Source: a virus
Virus record (IMG/VR): IMGVR_UViG_3300024968_000001
Location: 1-35,879 of that record
Length of the DNA: 35,879 nt
Reading direction: 5' to 3' (one strand)
The translations under genes were made by a program, and so were the position numbers. Within the stretch, counting starts at the first letter, position 1, and each line of letters begins with the position of its first letter. The notes under the pieces were generated by a model, which was not told where the DNA came from, did not search any database, and saw only the letters and a program-made list of their open reading frames with translations. Below, one piece after another: positions 14,812-25,643 of the stretch.

Positions 14812-16659
14812 TTAAGCGGTTAATGCGTCTTTCATTGCTGAGAAGCTCTCAGCATGACGTACCGCAATATCAACATCTTGTAAGGCAACAACGCGAACAG
14901 TGCCAGATGTTGAGCCTGTGTATGGATCAACCATCAAATCTAATGAACCCCATTGACCGATAATTAAGTCATTCCAGTTACCTGCAATGATGGCTGAGGC
15001 AACACCTGATGATGAGCCTTTAGTTAAGTTGGCTGGCACTTGATTAGAAACACCACCACGCATACCGCCAATTGACGTTAAGCCTTGAGCATCAGGGAAA
15101 TTCTCGACAATGTAGCCAGAAACACCAGATGATTTAAGTGTGGTCATTAACTTACCAATCACTTTAGCGTTGGTCATAATGCCCATGCTGCCAAAGTCAG
15201 CATTTGCAGTAGCAATATCGCTCCACAACTCAACGATATGCGCCCATGTAGGGGCTAAACCATCAGTACCACCTACTACAGAGCCGATGCCGCTAGTGTT
15301 TAAAATACCGCGTGGCTGATTATCAGCACCAGTGCCGCTGATTGCTGCTAAGTCAATTGCCAAAGCAACTACGCGAGACAAGTCGTTACGAACGAAGCTT
15401 TCAACATCCATGCTTGATTGCAATAACAACTTACGGCTAATGTCAGTAAATGCACCTAATGTTTTAGGTGACATTGTCACTTGGTCAAATGCTTGTTGTG
15501 ATTCTGCTGGTGCGCCTGATTCAGCAACCCAATATGCAGTTGCACCACCTGTTTGACGTGGGATAGCAATCTGGCCAGTTAAGCCAGTCAGCATTTGAGC
15601 ACCCATACGTTGCACTAAAATCTTGTTGCGTAGCAGATCAATAAAAGAACCTGACAATAAATCAGTAGCTACCGTGTTACCACCGGCTGTTGCTGTCGTG
15701 ACATTCAAATCACGCGCCTGCACTTCGATTGGCACAAAGAAACCTTGTGCAGATTTACCGTGTTTTTGTGCAAAAGCATCAGATGCTTCACGCTCAAACT
15801 TTGCAGCCTCTTGTGCTTTACGATCAGCAGGGTTTGCTAATGCGTTTAAGGCACGTAAAAAGCTAAAGTTCCCAGCTTCTTTTTTGGTCATACCAATCGT
15901 TGCGCTATCTACTGGCTTGTTAGCCATGCGCTCTAAAACGATCGATGTAAACTCTTTTACGCTTTTACCATCCTGAATAGCTTGTGCAGCTAAATCAGCG
16001 CATTTGTATTGCGTACCAATCGCTAGAATTTCGTTAACTGTTGACATAGCACCTTTTGCGCCACGCTCTTCAATCACTTTTACGTCAACTTCTGGTTTGG
16101 TTTCTACTTTGTCCATGCTTTTCTCCATAGGGGAATTTTTAATTTCGATAATTGGGTTTGGAGTATCAGCACTTCTGCCGACACCGACTGTTGCATCTGC
16201 TGGCACTGAAACGAGAGAAATTTCGTATGGCTCCCAGTCCGTCACGGTGTAGGTTTCTTGATCGCGTGATTCTTCAGTTAACACTGCTTTATGAATCATG
16301 TATCCAACACTTACGCTGCGACGAATGCCGTCTTTTACGTCTTGAAAAACCTCTTCTGCACGCGCACTTTTCCCAAAACGCACCACAGCACGACCTACTC
16401 GGTCTGTACCGATCTGCACAGATTCAACTACCCCAATATGGTCACGACTATCGTGATCCATTAAAAATGGGCCGCCATCTTTCAAGCGGTCAAGGCGAAT
16501 ACTTTTTTCTTCGTGGCTAAGGATTTCAATTCCCCACCAACGCTCATAAGGTGTTTCAGATGAAAACGCCAACTCAACCGTTCTTGACTCTTCATTAATC
16601 GCTTCACGATTAAATAAAAAGCTTCTGACTTCTTTTGTACCTGGCTTAATTGTTTTCAT
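14812..16659 (-). CDS. Prohead protease fused to HK97-type major capsid protein
   Basis: 615 aa from the ATG at 16659, chosen for its AAGGAG 6 nt upstream. Residues 1-165 are an HK97-type (S78) prohead protease with LMDHD (H69), RRSVSVGY (candidate Ser 115 or 117) and the closing EISLVSVPADA. A charged linker/scaffold-like part follows (about 180-330). Residues from about 330 form the HK97 capsid fold, with segments TATAGGNTVATDLL, QIAIPRQTGGATAYWV and PRGILNTSG. In lambda, protease/scaffold (C/Nu3) and capsid (E) are separate genes. The fused form implies self-cleavage to free the capsid subunit. The gene follows the portal across a 48-bp gap with a hairpin. Confidence 0.9.
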   Translation of the reverse strand: MKTIKPGTKEVRSFLFNREAINEESRTVELAFSSETPYERWWGIEILSHEEKSIRLDRLKDGGPFLMDHDSRDHIGVVESVQIGTDRVGRAVVRFGKSARAEEVFQDVKDGIRRSVSVGYMIHKAVLTEESRDQETYTVTDWEPYEISLVSVPADATVGVGRSADTPNPIIEIKNSPMEKSMDKVETKPEVDVKVIEERGAKGAMSTVNEILAIGTQYKCADLAAQAIQDGKSVKEFTSIVLERMANKPVDSATIGMTKKEAGNFSFLRALNALANPADRKAQEAAKFEREASDAFAQKHGKSAQGFFVPIEVQARDLNVTTATAGGNTVATDLLSGSFIDLLRNKILVQRMGAQMLTGLTGQIAIPRQTGGATAYWVAESGAPAESQQAFDQVTMSPKTLGAFTDISRKLLLQSSMDVESFVRNDLSRVVALAIDLAAISGTGADNQPRGILNTSGIGSVVGGTDGLAPTWAHIVELWSDIATANADFGSMGIMTNAKVIGKLMTTLKSSGVSGYIVENFPDAQGLTSIGGMRGGVSNQVPANLTKGSSSGVASAIIAGNWNDLIIGQWGSLDLMVDPYTGSTSGTVRVVALQDVDIAVRHAESFSAMKDALTA

Positions 16660-16687
16660 TAATTGCTCCTTCATAAGTGCTATAAAA

Positions 16688-16725
16688 CCATGCAAAGCGT
16701 CAACAAATTAAGGCGAAGTGTTGAC
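16688..16725 (-). repeat. 38-bp repeat with palindrome, copy 1 (portal end / capsid leader)
   Basis: This copy and 18795-18832 agree at 36 of 38 positions. It contains GCGTCAACA (16697-16705) and TGTTGACGC (16719-16727), a 9-bp perfect inverted repeat with a 13-nt spacer. On the coding strand it covers the last codons of the portal gene (GTC AAC ACT TCG CCT TAA) and the leader of the capsid gene. Confidence 0.85.
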
Positions 16726-19164: not shown

Positions 19165-21282
19165 CTATTTCCTTGCAATCATTCTGCGTCTTGGTTTTCG
19201 GCTAGAGACAAGCGGTGCAGCTTGACCACTAGTTGGAATTACGTACTTACTCAAATCAACAGCACATAAGCGCATGGCAGCAAATGAATAAACTTTGCAG
19301 TCAATCGCCTCATTACGTGGGCGTGTTTTAACCCACTCTAAAATAGGACGCTGGCCCCGCATCTTGGTCACTAGCTTTTCAGCGGTAAGCTGCGCAAAAT
19401 ATTCATCATCAAAGTCTGGCTCTTGCGGATAATGAATGTAGCCAGGACCAGGCGTGGTAATTTTTAAACGCGAATACACCAGCGCCTTCCCTTGATCAAC
19501 ACCCAAGGGCTCAACATGCACCCCGCGCTTACGCTTTGCACGTAAGCGGGCGCGACGCTTTTTCTCATCTTCGATTAACGGACGTCCAGCACCTTCAACC
19601 CCTTTAATCGCCACACACCATTTGCGCTTTTCACAGAACGCATACACCATGCTTGTGTTGTAGCCTGAGTCAATCGCAGCCAGTCGAACGCCAGCCTCAC
19701 GCAATACTTCGTCTAACTCATCCCAAACATCTTGTGCAGCTGTATCACCAGGGATTACCAGATGATTAAGTGTCCAGTTCTCCTCATCTTTACCCCACCC
19801 ATCAATCGTGACTTCTAGCCGGTCTTTTTGTACGTCCACCCCTGCAGTTTTGAATGCGATAGATGGATTGTCGTAAACTTCAAGTCGCATGATGAGTGCA
19901 GTAGGATCTTGCTGATCACCCTGCTCTTTAAACACTTCACCCAAATAGGTGTTGATAAATGCTTTCAGCTCAGAACTATCACCCTGGCATTGCAGCCACT
20001 TTTCAACAATGGCACGCCAGCCAATCCCTAAACCAACTGGGGAATACAGTGCATTTAAATGGTAGCCATGATGCAGCTTGATACTAGGACGCTCAGCAAT
20101 CCAACGCCCTTTTGCCAGCATTTCAGTTTTATGCCCTTCATCGATGTAAACACCGCAGTGCTCGCATAAATACTGCACAGACTCCACTTGAGCTGGCTCA
20201 TCATCTACAGGCAAAGACATTTTCCATTTGAGGCCATAAGCAAAGTCCTTACCGCCAAACTTAAGGGTTTGAAATTCACCGCAATGTGGGCATGGCACGT
20301 GATAGCGGCGCATATCACTACGCTTATATAAAATATCAATTCGCGAGGCTTCATCTTTTGTAGGGGTGCTCACAAAGTAGCTTTTTGCTCGGCTAAATGT
20401 GCGCTGACGGTTTTCAATCAACGTCATCGGGTCGCCTTCACCGCCAACATCCCAAGGGAACGCATCAACTTCATCAGCCTCAACGTATGGCAAGTGATCA
20501 CTACGCAAACTATCTGGTGAATTTGCGCCTGCTTTGATAATGCGAGCACGTGCGCCATATTCCAAAAGGTCGCCACGATTGGCTTTATTGCGTGTGGATT
20601 TATTCACCAGCTCTTTAAGCACTGGCGTTTCTTCCATCATTTTGCTTAAACGTGGGTTAAGTGAACGCTCGCGTAGCTCCAATGTTGGCACTACGCACAG
20701 CAAATCTTTATTTTGAAGATGATGCATGATGTAGCCCACCCAGTTATACATCACCTCAGTACCACCTACGCCAGATGATTTAATAAACGTCACACTGCGC
20801 ACAGGGCTGTGCTCGCTTAGGTCGTCCATAATTTCGCGCAGGTATGGTGTAGTGGCAGTATTCCAACGTCCAGGTAAGTTGGTACCGCTTTCTAGCCAAC
20901 GGTTACGATCTGCCCATTGGCTTACTGTAATTAAATCGCGAGGCTTTGCACCACGCTTAAAATATTCGTTAAACTCAGGTAGTGGGGTATTAGTGTTATC
21001 TATTTGCGTAGATAATGAGTGCATTAAATCCAGCAAACAATCTGTCATTAAATAGTGGGTGCGTGTTTCATCGTGTGTATTTTCGATTGCATCCATCAAC
21101 GCGCTTTGCATTTTATTGGTAATGCTCAACATTAAACTACGCACGCGCATGGCAGACATCACCACCTCACCAGACAAGCAGCTTTCATCCTGCGCCTGCT
21201 GATACTGCTTAAGCGCGATCGTTGCATTAAGCTTAGCTTCTTGCGTTTTTAAATCTGGCATTGATGTTAGCGCAGCACTCAC
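19165..21282 (-). CDS. terL: Terminase large subunit (gpA family)
   Basis: 705 aa from a GTG with AAGGG 7-8 nt upstream. The ATPase domain has the deviant Walker A of this family, SSGVGGTE at 169-176, and Walker B YVEADEVD around 266-273. A zinc-binding insert has CPHC (C331/C334) and CEHC (C373/C376). The nuclease domain starts near 485 with AGVDVQKDRLEV and AIDSGYN. gpA-type enzymes cut cos sites and drive DNA into the prohead. Overall length is close to lambda gpA (641 aa) with longer ends. It follows terS directly. Confidence 0.94.
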   Translation of the reverse strand: MSAALTSMPDLKTQEAKLNATIALKQYQQAQDESCLSGEVVMSAMRVRSLMLSITNKMQSALMDAIENTHDETRTHYLMTDCLLDLMHSLSTQIDNTNTPLPEFNEYFKRGAKPRDLITVSQWADRNRWLESGTNLPGRWNTATTPYLREIMDDLSEHSPVRSVTFIKSSGVGGTEVMYNWVGYIMHHLQNKDLLCVVPTLELRERSLNPRLSKMMEETPVLKELVNKSTRNKANRGDLLEYGARARIIKAGANSPDSLRSDHLPYVEADEVDAFPWDVGGEGDPMTLIENRQRTFSRAKSYFVSTPTKDEASRIDILYKRSDMRRYHVPCPHCGEFQTLKFGGKDFAYGLKWKMSLPVDDEPAQVESVQYLCEHCGVYIDEGHKTEMLAKGRWIAERPSIKLHHGYHLNALYSPVGLGIGWRAIVEKWLQCQGDSSELKAFINTYLGEVFKEQGDQQDPTALIMRLEVYDNPSIAFKTAGVDVQKDRLEVTIDGWGKDEENWTLNHLVIPGDTAAQDVWDELDEVLREAGVRLAAIDSGYNTSMVYAFCEKRKWCVAIKGVEGAGRPLIEDEKKRRARLRAKRKRGVHVEPLGVDQGKALVYSRLKITTPGPGYIHYPQEPDFDDEYFAQLTAEKLVTKMRGQRPILEWVKTRPRNEAIDCKVYSFAAMRLCAVDLSKYVIPTSGQAAPLVSSRKPRRRMIARK

Positions 21283-21284
21283 AA

Positions 21285-21833
21285 TTAACCCTTTCTCAAT
21301 CTGCGCATAGCGCGTGGAAACTCTGCTTTAATTACGCGACTCAGTTTCTTAATTTCTTCCTCTAAAATCCTATGTCTCAATCCAGCGTCTTTAGTCACAG
21401 CTAAACGCGGAGCAGTTTGATCAACCAATCGCTCTAAACTTGCCCTTAGCGTGTTGCCTAATGCCTGGGCTTCGCGGCGCACATCCGCAATTAAAAAACG
21501 TTTTCCTAGCACCAAATCAAACTCAAGTGCCTTATGGTCGTTTTTCACTTGCTGCAATGTGCGCTCGTAATATTGACGACTACCTTCTTCAACCTCTGCC
21601 ACCTTGCGTTTTTTACGAGCAGGCTTCATACCTTTACGCTCTGCCTCATGGCGTGCTGCCACGGATGGTTTAGCCCCGCTTGCTGTGGCCTCTATTTTTG
21701 AAATTGAAGCCTCAACCTCAACACGCTTACCATCCTCAGTAAGCACAATGCGCCCATGATTAATCAGCTCAGTGATATAACTTGGCGCACGCTGAATACG
21801 CTTAGCAAATTGGCTTTTGGTTTCGATGGTCAT
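21285..21833 (-). CDS. terS: Terminase small subunit (Nu1-like)
   Basis: 182 aa, the same length class as lambda Nu1 (181 aa). The N-terminus is a winged HTH (KSQFAKRIQRAPSYITELINHGRI), which would read the cos/pac site. The middle is very basic (PARKKRKVAEVEEGS near 70-88), and the C-terminal half is helical (YERTLQQVKNDHKALEFDL, then LGNTLRASLERL) for oligomerisation and TerL contact. ATG overlaps the preceding stop (TAATG). Immediate neighbour of terL. Confidence 0.88.
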   Translation of the reverse strand: MTIETKSQFAKRIQRAPSYITELINHGRIVLTEDGKRVEVEASISKIEATASGAKPSVAARHEAERKGMKPARKKRKVAEVEEGSRQYYERTLQQVKNDHKALEFDLVLGKRFLIADVRREAQALGNTLRASLERLVDQTAPRLAVTKDAGLRHRILEEEIKKLSRVIKAEFPRAMRRLRKG

Positions 21834-22209: not shown

Positions 22210-22452
22210 CTACTTTTTACCTAATTCAATTTTTAATAACCCAGCAACAACTCCATCCGCTGGTACCTGCTTCCCTAACTCTCCTAGCGCAAGATAGTCA
22301 GCACCATTTATTTCTAACCTAGGGATTGAGGAATCTTTCCAACCCTTACTTCCACCAACTTGACCAGTTTCAAAATTAGTCGCTTTAAACTCCACAGCAC
22401 CAAAAGAAGATCTAAATTCATCTACTACTTCTTTAATACTTTTCTCTTTCAT
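22210..22452 (-). CDS. Small hypothetical protein
   Basis: 80 aa, soluble; residues 1-20 are charged and helical, and GVVAGLLKIELGKK closes the protein. No domain recognised. ATG overlaps the stop of the iteron-region ORF by ATGA, but no ribosome site is seen. If that upstream ORF is not translated, expression of this gene is uncertain. Confidence 0.55.
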   Translation of the reverse strand: MKEKSIKEVVDEFRSSFGAVEFKATNFETGQVGGSKGWKDSSIPRLEINGADYLALGELGKQVPADGVVAGLLKIELGKK

Positions 22453-22727
22453 ATAGTAAAAGTAGTGTGATGGGGTGTGATGGGGTCATATGTACCCCGT
22501 AACATCCGCAAGGCGCATGTATAAAGGAGTGTGATGGGGGTGATGGGTGTGATGGGGTGTTGCTCGTGTGCGTGAGAGTTAATTATTAAAATATTAGTAT
22601 TAATATCACTACGTGTACGCGCACACATGAAACCCCATAACACCCGTAACAAACCAATATTGGCGCGGTGTTTGCCCATCACATACCCCGTCACATAACC
22701 CATCACACCCATCACATTTCTAATCAT
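22449..22727 (-). CDS. Doubtful ORF read through the iteron array
   Basis: 92 codons starting at an ATG overlapped with the primase stop, with GAGG 8 nt upstream. The product (MGVMGYVTGYVMG near the start, HPITPITPIT near 57-66) is a direct readout of the 10-bp repeats and does not look like a folded protein. It may serve only to keep ribosomes and coupling going through the origin region, or it is chance. Listed because start context and length allow expression. Confidence 0.3.
   Translation of the reverse strand: MIRNVMGVMGYVTGYVMGKHRANIGLLRVLWGFMCARTRSDINTNILIINSHAHEQHPITPITPITLLYTCALRMLRGTYDPITPHHTTFTI
22467..22715. other. Candidate replication origin: mirror-arranged iterons
   Basis: About twelve copies of a 10-bp unit, GTGATGGGGT and variants GTKAYGGG(G)T. 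Plus-strand copies start at 22467, 22477, 22531, 22540 and 22549. Copies on the other strand are at 22494, 22632, 22642, 22675, 22685, 22698 and 22707. Apart from the one at 22494, left copies point right and right copies point left. Between them is an AT-only-like tract (22579-22606, one G in 28) flanked by GTGTGCG (22566-22572) and CGCACAC (22620-22626); all are centred near 22595. Iterons plus AT-rich core beside the replicative primase-helicase are the usual signs of an origin. A cosB-like terminase site is the alternative. Confidence 0.7.
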
Positions 22728-25044
22728 TTTGTGGCCTCAATGCTTCTTTAAAATCAAGTACGCAAGTTGTTACCCATTGAGATTCAGTAGAATCAGGTTT
22801 TTTTAACTGCTTTTCTGAAATAAAATCTTCAGGTGGATAAATCACAGCACGCTGCTTTGCCTCACCAGTAAAGTGATAATTTGAATATATGCGCGGCTTA
22901 CTGCGTGACCAGCCACTCATTTTCACAATATTGCCTATCAACTGATTCAACTCACGCGGTCTAACCACGCCATTACGCTTAGCCCAATCGGTATATGCTT
23001 TATATAAATCCTCGCTTAAGCATGGGCAAACAGGCAGATCCAACTCACTAGCGGTCCATTCCTGCAAGAATCTATCGCCAGACTCAAGATTGATATCAAT
23101 CAGATCCTGCTTAGATTTAGTCATCGGTGGCTTGCTATGCTGGTTAAAATCACCAAGTGGCAAGTTCAAAAGATAATCATGCAGGGCTTCAATACCCCCA
23201 CACGCAACCTCTTCAGCTACATCAGAATAGTAATTAGGGTGAAGTTTTTCTGGTGTCCAGATCACAGCAAAACGTCTGTCATCTTTCTCAAGCACTAACG
23301 GTTGCTTTTCATTAGATAAAAATACGATATTGACGTGGTTTTTTTCATCATGAGCAGCCACGTTTTTAGGGTTAATCCTGATCGTGTCGCCAGTGATTAA
23401 TGCTTTGATTTTGTTTTTAATGTGAAAAAGCTCTTGCCTCGCCACAACCTCATCAGCAATCATGAATAACTTGCCAGAAGCCCAATCATTAAACTTATCA
23501 TCGATTTCAGCCTGGCCAACAATGCGAGAATATTTACCAAAAATTTGCGCATAGGCTTCAAAGAACAGATTTTTACCAGCACCCTGTGGACCATGAAAAA
23601 TGAGTGCCGTACGCATTTTTGCGCCCTTGTTTTGTAGCGGATATGCAAGCCACTTCAAAACCCACTCGTAAACCTCTTTATTGCCAGACTCTTCACCACT
23701 GCAAAGATGCTCAAGCAAACTTAATAAGATTCCGCATTGCCCAGCTTTGGGCTCAGTAGGCCAACCACCCCATAAATTGCAGATGATGTTTTTATCTTTC
23801 TCAGTAGGATCAAAGCCAACCTCACTTAAGCGCACAACACTACGCATTGGGTGTAACTTCCACTCACGCCAGGCGTGATCAACACAAATATCTAATACAT
23901 CAGACTTTGGTATTAGGCTTGCCTCTTGGTGGTCGTACATCGTGCCGCCCGCACCATAGATTAAGCTGTAACGATCAACTGCCTCACCCACATCAAGCAA
24001 AGGCTTTAATGTACCTCTAGCATCATCCCCACCCCCCTGCTGTGTAGTAGCCGCACGCGGCACTACAGAAACCCAACCAAGCTGGTGGAGCTTATCCTCT
24101 ATTTGCACTCTAATGGTGCTTTCAGAGCAGTTAGGAAAGTTAACAAGGTCATTAAAGTCAGTAAGTTTTTTACCTTCACGGTCAAATGGAAAATCAGGCT
24201 TAACCCATGCCCCACCCACGGCAATCGCTGCTTTCTCTGCTGCAGCACATCCAGGATTTCCCTCACTCAAATAATCATCGTCAGCACAAATTAAAATGTG
24301 TGCACGTGGATATTCTTTGTGAAGCGACTCTGCCACTGGCTGAAGATTTCCTGCATCAAAAGCCACTGCCACAGGAATTTCTGTCGCTTGATAAATACTT
24401 GCGCCGGTGGCATAACCTTCAGCCACTAATATTGTTGGCGTTTGTAGAGAAACGCTGCCACACAAATGAAAGTGTGATTTTTTATTAAGGCCTTTAGGCC
24501 AGTATTCTTTTTCAAGCTTAGTGCCGCGGTCTTTTCCGCGAATGATTTGCAACCCCCATACTTTGCCTTTAATGTCCTTCATTGGCACCGCAACTGTACC
24601 GTTGCCAGATGGTGCAAACCTCAACCCATGAGAGCGCACACCTTTTCGATTCAGATAACTACTTTCTCCTTCAGGCACGTATTTGTGCCAGGCAATCGCA
24701 GCCATCTTTGCGGCCTTTTCTGCATCCTGCTCGCGTTTTAGCTTTTCGCGTTTTTGCGCTTCTGCATGTTGTTTTTTTATAGCGGCCAGCTGATCCTTGC
24801 TTAGCTTAACTTCTGCACCTGGTGAAATTTTTTCACTGTAAGCCTCACCACCAAACCAGTAGCCAAAAGAACCAATCAATGCATGACGACCATCATCCAG
24901 CGTGATCTCATGCACAACGTACCAGCCCTTTTGTCCATGGCCATTACGTTTAATACGTCTCATCACACCGATATCAAGACTGCTGACAATGAAGTCATGA
25001 CTGACTAGCGTACCGATCACATCATCATAGTTAATCCAGCTCAT
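22720..25044 (-). CDS. Primase-helicase (Toprim plus SF3/D5-type helicase)
   Basis: 774 aa. An N-terminal region with a charged linker (about 85-115) leads to a Toprim primase domain with E209 (VAEGYATGASIY) and D255/D257 (ICADDDYL). From about 400 on there is a D5/VapE-like superfamily 3 helicase with Walker A GPQGAGKN (485-492), Walker B LFMIADE (525-531) and a sensor region VFLSNEKQPLV followed by DDRRF. No classical zinc finger precedes Toprim. This is the replication initiator and fork enzyme, of the P4-alpha type in architecture. ATG overlaps the preceding stop, with AAGG upstream. It lies next to the iteron array, its likely binding site. Confidence 0.9.
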   Translation of the reverse strand: MSWINYDDVIGTLVSHDFIVSSLDIGVMRRIKRNGHGQKGWYVVHEITLDDGRHALIGSFGYWFGGEAYSEKISPGAEVKLSKDQLAAIKKQHAEAQKREKLKREQDAEKAAKMAAIAWHKYVPEGESSYLNRKGVRSHGLRFAPSGNGTVAVPMKDIKGKVWGLQIIRGKDRGTKLEKEYWPKGLNKKSHFHLCGSVSLQTPTILVAEGYATGASIYQATEIPVAVAFDAGNLQPVAESLHKEYPRAHILICADDDYLSEGNPGCAAAEKAAIAVGGAWVKPDFPFDREGKKLTDFNDLVNFPNCSESTIRVQIEDKLHQLGWVSVVPRAATTQQGGGDDARGTLKPLLDVGEAVDRYSLIYGAGGTMYDHQEASLIPKSDVLDICVDHAWREWKLHPMRSVVRLSEVGFDPTEKDKNIICNLWGGWPTEPKAGQCGILLSLLEHLCSGEESGNKEVYEWVLKWLAYPLQNKGAKMRTALIFHGPQGAGKNLFFEAYAQIFGKYSRIVGQAEIDDKFNDWASGKLFMIADEVVARQELFHIKNKIKALITGDTIRINPKNVAAHDEKNHVNIVFLSNEKQPLVLEKDDRRFAVIWTPEKLHPNYYSDVAEEVACGGIEALHDYLLNLPLGDFNQHSKPPMTKSKQDLIDINLESGDRFLQEWTASELDLPVCPCLSEDLYKAYTDWAKRNGVVRPRELNQLIGNIVKMSGWSRSKPRIYSNYHFTGEAKQRAVIYPPEDFISEKQLKKPDSTESQWVTTCVLDFKEALRPQND

Positions 25045-25643
25045 TTGCCAGCCTTACTAAGTTGCAGATTAATTGCCCTGTCAAACTCAATAATCATTTC
25101 AGCATTGATACGATCAATCACTCTTTTGCTAATACGCTTAGTGTTGAACATTTGAGGAACATCAATCGTGGTCAATGCTTTAATTGGCAATCTTGCTTTA
25201 CCAATACGAGCAAACACGGTGCGTCCGTTGTTACCAAGAAAAGCACCTTTAATTACTTTTCCTGACGCGCCTTTTTTAATCTGGAATCTAAGATCGTTCT
25301 GAGTGCCAGCTTTTTTTCTCCTACGGCCTTCAGCTAAAGAAACTTTCTTTTCAGCAAATCTGATCAAGTTAAAACCACGACCACGCCTAGCTTTTACGTT
25401 AGGGTCCAAAGATGCAACCCAGTTACCTCCAACACTCCTAGCTTTGGTAACGCGTAAATTTTCTCGAACCTCTGAAGCCTTAATGTTAAATTCTGAAGTA
25501 ATGCCTCGCACCATTTCAGTATTTGCTTTGGCAACCACTTTGTTGAGTGCAGCAGGGATTACCTTTTTTTGTATATTTTCCGGAATAGATTTAAGACGCT
25601 TCTGCAAATCTTTGAAGTCCGCTTTTATTGTTAAACTAACCAT
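25041..25643 (-). CDS. Minor tail protein Z-like, displaced into replication operon
   Basis: 200 aa, highly basic. It has the build of the prophage minor tail Z family: an N-terminal IKADFKDLQKRL helix, VIPAALNKVVAKANTEMVR, a basic middle (RGRGFNLIRF, GRRRKKAGT), the core KGAFLGNNGRTVFARIG, and a C-terminal IDRINAEMIIEFDRAI helix. Lambda gpZ acts late in tail maturation for DNA injection. AGGGA is 7 nt before ATG; the stop overlaps the primase start. Lambda places Z between FII and U, where this phage has nothing. A DNA-binding role near the primase cannot be excluded. Confidence 0.7.
   Translation of the reverse strand: MVSLTIKADFKDLQKRLKSIPENIQKKVIPAALNKVVAKANTEMVRGITSEFNIKASEVRENLRVTKARSVGGNWVASLDPNVKARRGRGFNLIRFAEKKVSLAEGRRRKKAGTQNDLRFQIKKGASGKVIKGAFLGNNGRTVFARIGKARLPIKALTTIDVPQMFNTKRISKRVIDRINAEMIIEFDRAINLQLSKAGK

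Follow-up and report, generated by a model that had tools for sequence, protein, structure and literature searches.

What is the function of a dense cluster of short repeats that lies between the primase-helicase gene and the terminase genes of a temperate phage: does it start replication, direct packaging, control an operon, or encode a repetitive protein? The window analyzed here (the whole stretch of DNA, 35.9 kb) is the genome of such a phage. The record is circular, its first 127 bases being identical to its last 127 bases (a 127-bp terminal overlap), and it contains its own virion and packaging set, comprising terS, terL, portal, capsid, head-closure, and tail genes. With this full complement, the element is a complete phage and not a PICI satellite. 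On the minus strand, the primase-helicase gene is followed by the array, three small ORFs, terS, and terL (Table 1). The evidence described below indicates that the array is very probably the phage's replication start site.

Several features of the gene order are recorded here as separate observations. The first ORF after the array (80 aa; 22210-22452, minus strand) is kept in close relatives (L003, L004, L006, L007, and L019) and had no match in Pfam or PHROG. A gpZ-like neck/tail-completion gene (25041-25643, minus strand; PF06763, PHROG 27) is found in the early operon, between a DksA-like gene and the primase gene, and not among the head-tail genes; about 16 relatives share this placement, whereas the gpZ-like gene directly follows the array in L158, L162, and L166. 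The head maturation protease and the major head protein are apparently fused into one 627-aa ORF (14812-16695, minus strand; PHROG 617 and 4523).

Table 1. Coordinates of the array, its components, and the neighboring genes in the window
Feature	Position	Strand	Remarks
terL, lambda GpA type	19165..21282	-	PF05876/PF20454
terS, terminase small subunit	21285..21833	-	PHROG 57
92-codon open frame through the array	22449..22727	-	openness above expectation in relatives
terS-side arm	22466..22556	+	six iterons: TGTKAYGGG at 22466, 22476, 22496 (flipped, minus strand), 22530, and 22548; GGTGATGGG at 22539
Flipped iteron TGTTACGGG	22496..22504	-	counted as sixth member of the terS-side arm
Core between the arms	22557..22633		measured in relatives as distance between innermost iteron starts
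Alternating purine-pyrimidine run CGTGTGCGTG	22565..22574		terS-side core edge; direct reading
AT tract	22580..22608		27/29 A/T; candidate melting site in this genome
Alternating purine-pyrimidine run TACGTGTACGCGCACACATG	22610..22629		20 bp; primase-side core edge
primase-side arm	22634..22716	-	six iterons: TGTKAYGGG at 22634, 22643, 22675, 22687, 22699, and 22708
primase-helicase gene	22720..25044	-	774 aa; Pfam PF13362, PF19263; PHROG 2249 DNA primase

The two-armed array in the window and in relatives

Against an expectation of 0.92, the 35.9-kb genome contains the word TGTKAYGGG 12 times; shuffled sequences never contained it more than four times. Eleven of the 12 matches fall at 22466-22716, and no second array or second cluster of this word was found elsewhere in the window. 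When the variant GGTGATGGG is added, the array comprises 12 iterons of the TGTGATGGG type, six in each arm, one flipped copy included. A sliding two-arm statistic, which gives credit when a word on one flank of a midpoint is matched by its reverse complement on the opposite flank, reached 11 at the array and at most 6 at 1,731 other positions in the window. The two-armed iteron array that the initial annotation had described at 22449-22727 is therefore real. Its five rightward copies, six leftward copies, and one reversed copy at 22494 are present as well, although the reversed copy turns out to be a regular sixth member of its arm. The mirror symmetry also claimed for the array holds for the polarity of the iterons but not for their internal spacing, which is 4 + 2 in one arm and 3 + 3 in the other.

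With the primase as the query, two scans of viral contigs and one genome scan yielded 170 usable loci, 167 of which had enough downstream sequence for array scoring; these 167 loci were not dereplicated. An inverted two-armed array directly 3' of the primase stop codon scored above the 99th percentile of 2,964 control windows, drawn from the same loci, in 154 of the 167 cases (median score of 12 in relatives; control maximum of 7). The layout is conserved while the word changes between lineages, TGTGATGGG, TGTGCAGGG, TGTGCCGGG, TGTGCGG, TGTTACAG, CGCTACGGG, AACCACGCC, CGAACGCA, TGGAACG, and CGATACG being among the variants. Conserved symmetry with changing sequence, which had been suggested as a check, is thus found in relatives, and the conserved primase-adjacent layout supports the original reading of the locus as an origin. 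In all, the layout was found in more than 100 related phages and prophages; a nucleotide search of plasmids with the array gave no match. Later statistics refer to 125 array-bearing loci with primase identity below 90%.

The layout is also preserved in four isolated phages, PG1, pAN, Turba, and H4907. The exact-word statistic is low for these four and for PS3 and KT1, because iterons are degenerate or some repeats are flipped, and their arrays were recognized by reading the sequence, which makes them weaker evidence than the 154 scored loci.

The number and spacing of the iterons follow a common pattern. Among the 117 loci with a recognizable core, six iterons were counted in the primase-side arm of 61 and in the other arm of 48, and seven iterons were present in only 5 and 2 loci, respectively, consistent with an upper limit of six in each arm. 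Where fewer were counted, the scan probably overlooked diverged copies. In the 32 loci with 6 + 6 iterons, the usual spacing is 9, 12, 12, about 32, and 9 from the primase to the core, and 9, 9, 32 to 43, 12, and 9 beyond it. Gaps of 18-60 bp between iterons of the same orientation cluster at multiples of 10.6 bp (R 0.70), which places the iterons on one face of the helix. One iteron in the far arm is regularly flipped, giving the conserved pattern <<<><< when viewed from the primase, and some lineages have a flipped iteron in the near arm, too. The flip seen in the window recurs in L043, L053, L056, L083, L094, L141, and others. A further variant of this pattern, with the outer far-arm iterons reversed, was observed in the Pseudomonas phages L184, L185, and L186.

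Association of the array with the primase-helicase and with terS

The position of the array raises the question of which neighboring protein reads it. If the array were the terminase site cosB, TerS would bind the repeats and the DNA would be cut nearby for packaging, an alternative in keeping with the short distance to terS, which in the window starts 633 nt from the array and in 129 loci is found downstream of it, and with a lambda-type TerL, which implies cos packaging. However, the array is fixed in position relative to the primase gene, with the first iteron at a median of +7 nt from the stop codon (SD 18 nt), and variable relative to terS (SD of the distance, 558 nt). In PG1, Turba, and H4907, the array remains at the primase gene while lysis genes (and, in PG1 and H4907, also an HNH nuclease) separate it from terS, which is located 2-3 kb downstream. 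Moreover, seven arrays have no detected terS or terL within at least 3 kb of downstream sequence.

Comparing word similarity between loci with protein identity separated the two candidate readers further. The iteron word co-varies with residues 655-774 of the primase (partial r 0.27, or 0.32 when TerS is included; p 0.002 by permutation, the lowest attainable value) and with the N-terminal part (partial r 0.16-0.19), and gives no signal for the helicase core (partial r -0.09). For TerS, the value is 0.067 once the primase is accounted for, which is not significant (p 0.07). It is important to note that physical linkage may feed the co-variation, because the C-terminal coding region touches the array; yet the co-variation does not fall steadily with distance, as the helicase core lacks a partial signal despite lying closer than the N-terminus. 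The array thus goes with the primase in both position and co-variation, and not with TerS, and cosB, which the initial annotation had offered as its alternative, is a very unlikely identity for it. GC skew, another of the checks suggested at the outset, does not turn at the array; it tracks the direction of the genes, has its minimum near 27-31 kb, and is uninformative here.

The predicted initiator combines a Toprim domain (aa 205-300), a DUF5906/SF3-type helicase domain (aa 483-591), and a C-terminal domain (about aa 655-774), the last of which is proposed from the co-variation to be the reader of the iterons. An AF2 model of the full protein has a mean pLDDT of 84. For the helicase half, Foldseek matched the NrS-1 C-terminal region, SaPI5 PriRep, and the pox D5/E5 hexamers, of which sequence comparison retrieves only NrS-1. 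The C-terminal domain alone is modeled with a pLDDT of 92 and had no significant Foldseek match (best E 0.6, mostly winged-helix proteins). As a separate observation, two versions of the helicase region (around alignment columns 500-700) exist among the relatives, one in L012, L019, L026, L027, and L030 and the other in L008 and L009. L008 and L012 differ in this region and share the iteron word TGTGCAGGG, which suggests modular exchange inside the primase gene.

The core and the open frame

The two arms are separated by a core of similar length in relatives, the innermost iteron starts being 74-105 bp apart (5-95%; median of 90). Two elements had been singled out in the core of the window, an AT tract in the middle, which is present (Table 1), and a GTGTGCG/CGCACAC pair. 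The pair exists (22566-22572 and 22620-22626) and is better described as part of two alternating purine-pyrimidine runs at the core edges. Such a run of at least 10 is found in 97% of the relatives' cores, compared to 8% of control stretches, and 86% have another one of 8 or more. The AT content of the core shows no overall excess across relatives and a slight local one (0.60 versus 0.555), and an AT-rich core was discarded as a general defining feature. The conserved property of the core is the alternating purine-pyrimidine tract more than AT richness.

The array also coincides with an open frame of 92 codons, whose start codon overlaps the primase stop and which ends in a TGA overlapping the ATG that opens the next ORF (ATGA). 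This frame was initially regarded as a mere disguise of the array; its existence is confirmed, but the relatives do not bear out that view of it, as most of them keep it open. On the primase strand, 97 of 123 dereplicated arrays are open throughout, compared to 42 on the opposite strand (57 versus 2 discordant, p 6e-15) and to 48 expected from shuffles. In 94 arrays, an ORF starts near the primase stop and reads beyond the last iteron, most frequently with a 4-base overlap.

Openness so far above expectation, in a frame that starts at the primase stop, would also be explained by a real gene for a repetitive protein, with the iterons as coding repeats. Such a gene is barely credible, considering that the iterons are inverted between the arms and are spread over all three phases of the frame (41/27/26), and that the peptides are unlike each other across lineages and the product matches no Pfam or PHROG family. 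Since the phase varies and the peptides are dissimilar, what is kept seems to be openness and not a protein. The RNA of the window array folds far better than shuffled sequences (z -5.9), and translation would keep this fold open.

Comparison with known origins and implications

In a survey of PICIs, two iteron sets were found to flank an AT-rich stretch directly 3' of pri-rep, the pri-ori segment of EcCICFT073 drove plasmid replication and needed ori, and the organization was claimed to be absent from every other known bacterial replicon (PMC6092414). For SaPIs, binding of Rep to downstream iterons via the C-terminal domain has been reported, apparently in the form of two hexamers (PMC7581432). 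The EcCICFT073 array has a two-arm score of 9 in the same place, 3' of the primase gene. As in these origins (e.g., EcCICFT073 and SaPIbov1), the window array is located directly 3' of the pri/rep gene, consists of two opposed iteron sets and a core, and uses a word that differs between elements. The initiator of the satellites is a hexameric primase-helicase with a DUF5906-type helicase; the window protein has a DUF5906 match and, judging by its fold, may form a hexamer, although only the DUF5906 segment aligns with the EcCICFT073 protein in BLASTP and profile comparisons. In contrast to the satellites, the array resides in a complete phage that encodes its own terminase as well as head and tail proteins, the primase part is of the Toprim type and has no match to D5_N or Pox_D5, the core is longer (about 90 bp from one innermost iteron start to the other) with conserved alternating purine-pyrimidine runs, and the array is carried inside a coupled open frame. 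The likenesses suggest that the window array works like a PICI/SaPI origin in an element that is a complete phage.

The same comparison bears on whether the primase or another early protein uses the array as an operator to control its own operon. The array sits inside a transcribed operon, and iteron arrays often regulate copy number as well; the array may have a regulatory role besides that of an origin. As its sole function, autoregulation is highly improbable: the array comes after and not before the primase gene, two six-site arms around a melting-prone core exceed the needs of an operator, and in EcCICFT073 an array of the same layout proved to be an origin when tested by experiment.

Other systems resemble the locus in part. 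P4, the model favored by the initial annotation, encodes a primase fused to an SF3-type helicase (alpha) that acts on iterons of about 10 bp at ori, and it needs a second cis region, crr. The window shares the fusion and the short iterons with P4 as generally described, and no second array that would be a crr counterpart was found in it; the closest known system is the SaPI/PICI origin, with its two iteron sets 3' of pri/rep. The lambda origin has direct iterons on one side, inside gene O beside an AT tract, is transcribed through as part of the early operon, and depends on O and the loading of a host helicase. The window likewise has iterons next to an AT tract in an early operon, but with two inverted arms and a phage-encoded helicase. 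Among solved proteins, the NrS-1 primase-polymerase is closest to the helicase half in both sequence and fold, with only its C-terminal region matching the window protein.

Taken together, the array is very probably an origin worked by the adjoining primase-helicase. The protein from the gene just upstream would bind the iterons via its C-terminal domain, probably with one hexamer per six-iteron arm, so that two oppositely oriented hexamers flank the core. The core, with its alternating purine-pyrimidine runs and, here, an AT tract, would melt; threading of the helicases onto the strands would follow, with bidirectional synthesis primed by the fused Toprim domain. Ribosomes re-initiating at the primase stop may keep the array translatable inside the early operon, allowing transcription and translation to pass through to the packaging genes.

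A broader model is more tentative, the chances of all its parts holding jointly being somewhat less than even. In this model, phage origins of this class would be widespread, and each arm, with exactly six iterons, would provide the seat for a single hexamer, the two hexamers being head to head; the word and the reader domain would diversify in step, so that the origins of co-resident phages are not cross-fired; the alternating purine-pyrimidine tracts would be where the core melts; and a translated frame through the origin would be maintained by selection, to let ribosomes hold the RNA hairpin open.

The plan itself is already known from satellites, and new here is its occurrence in phages; a literature search that was thin on subscription journals found no paper describing phage arrays of this layout. 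The findings carry the origin plan of PICIs and SaPIs over to complete temperate phages from many Proteobacteria and are relevant to the source of the satellites' replicons. More than 100 iteron arrays paired with reader domains constitute a natural library, with which the DNA-recognition code of SF3 primase-helicases and the idea of one hexamer per arm become directly testable. Finally, an origin kept open as a translated frame would represent a seldom-considered constraint on origins inside operons.
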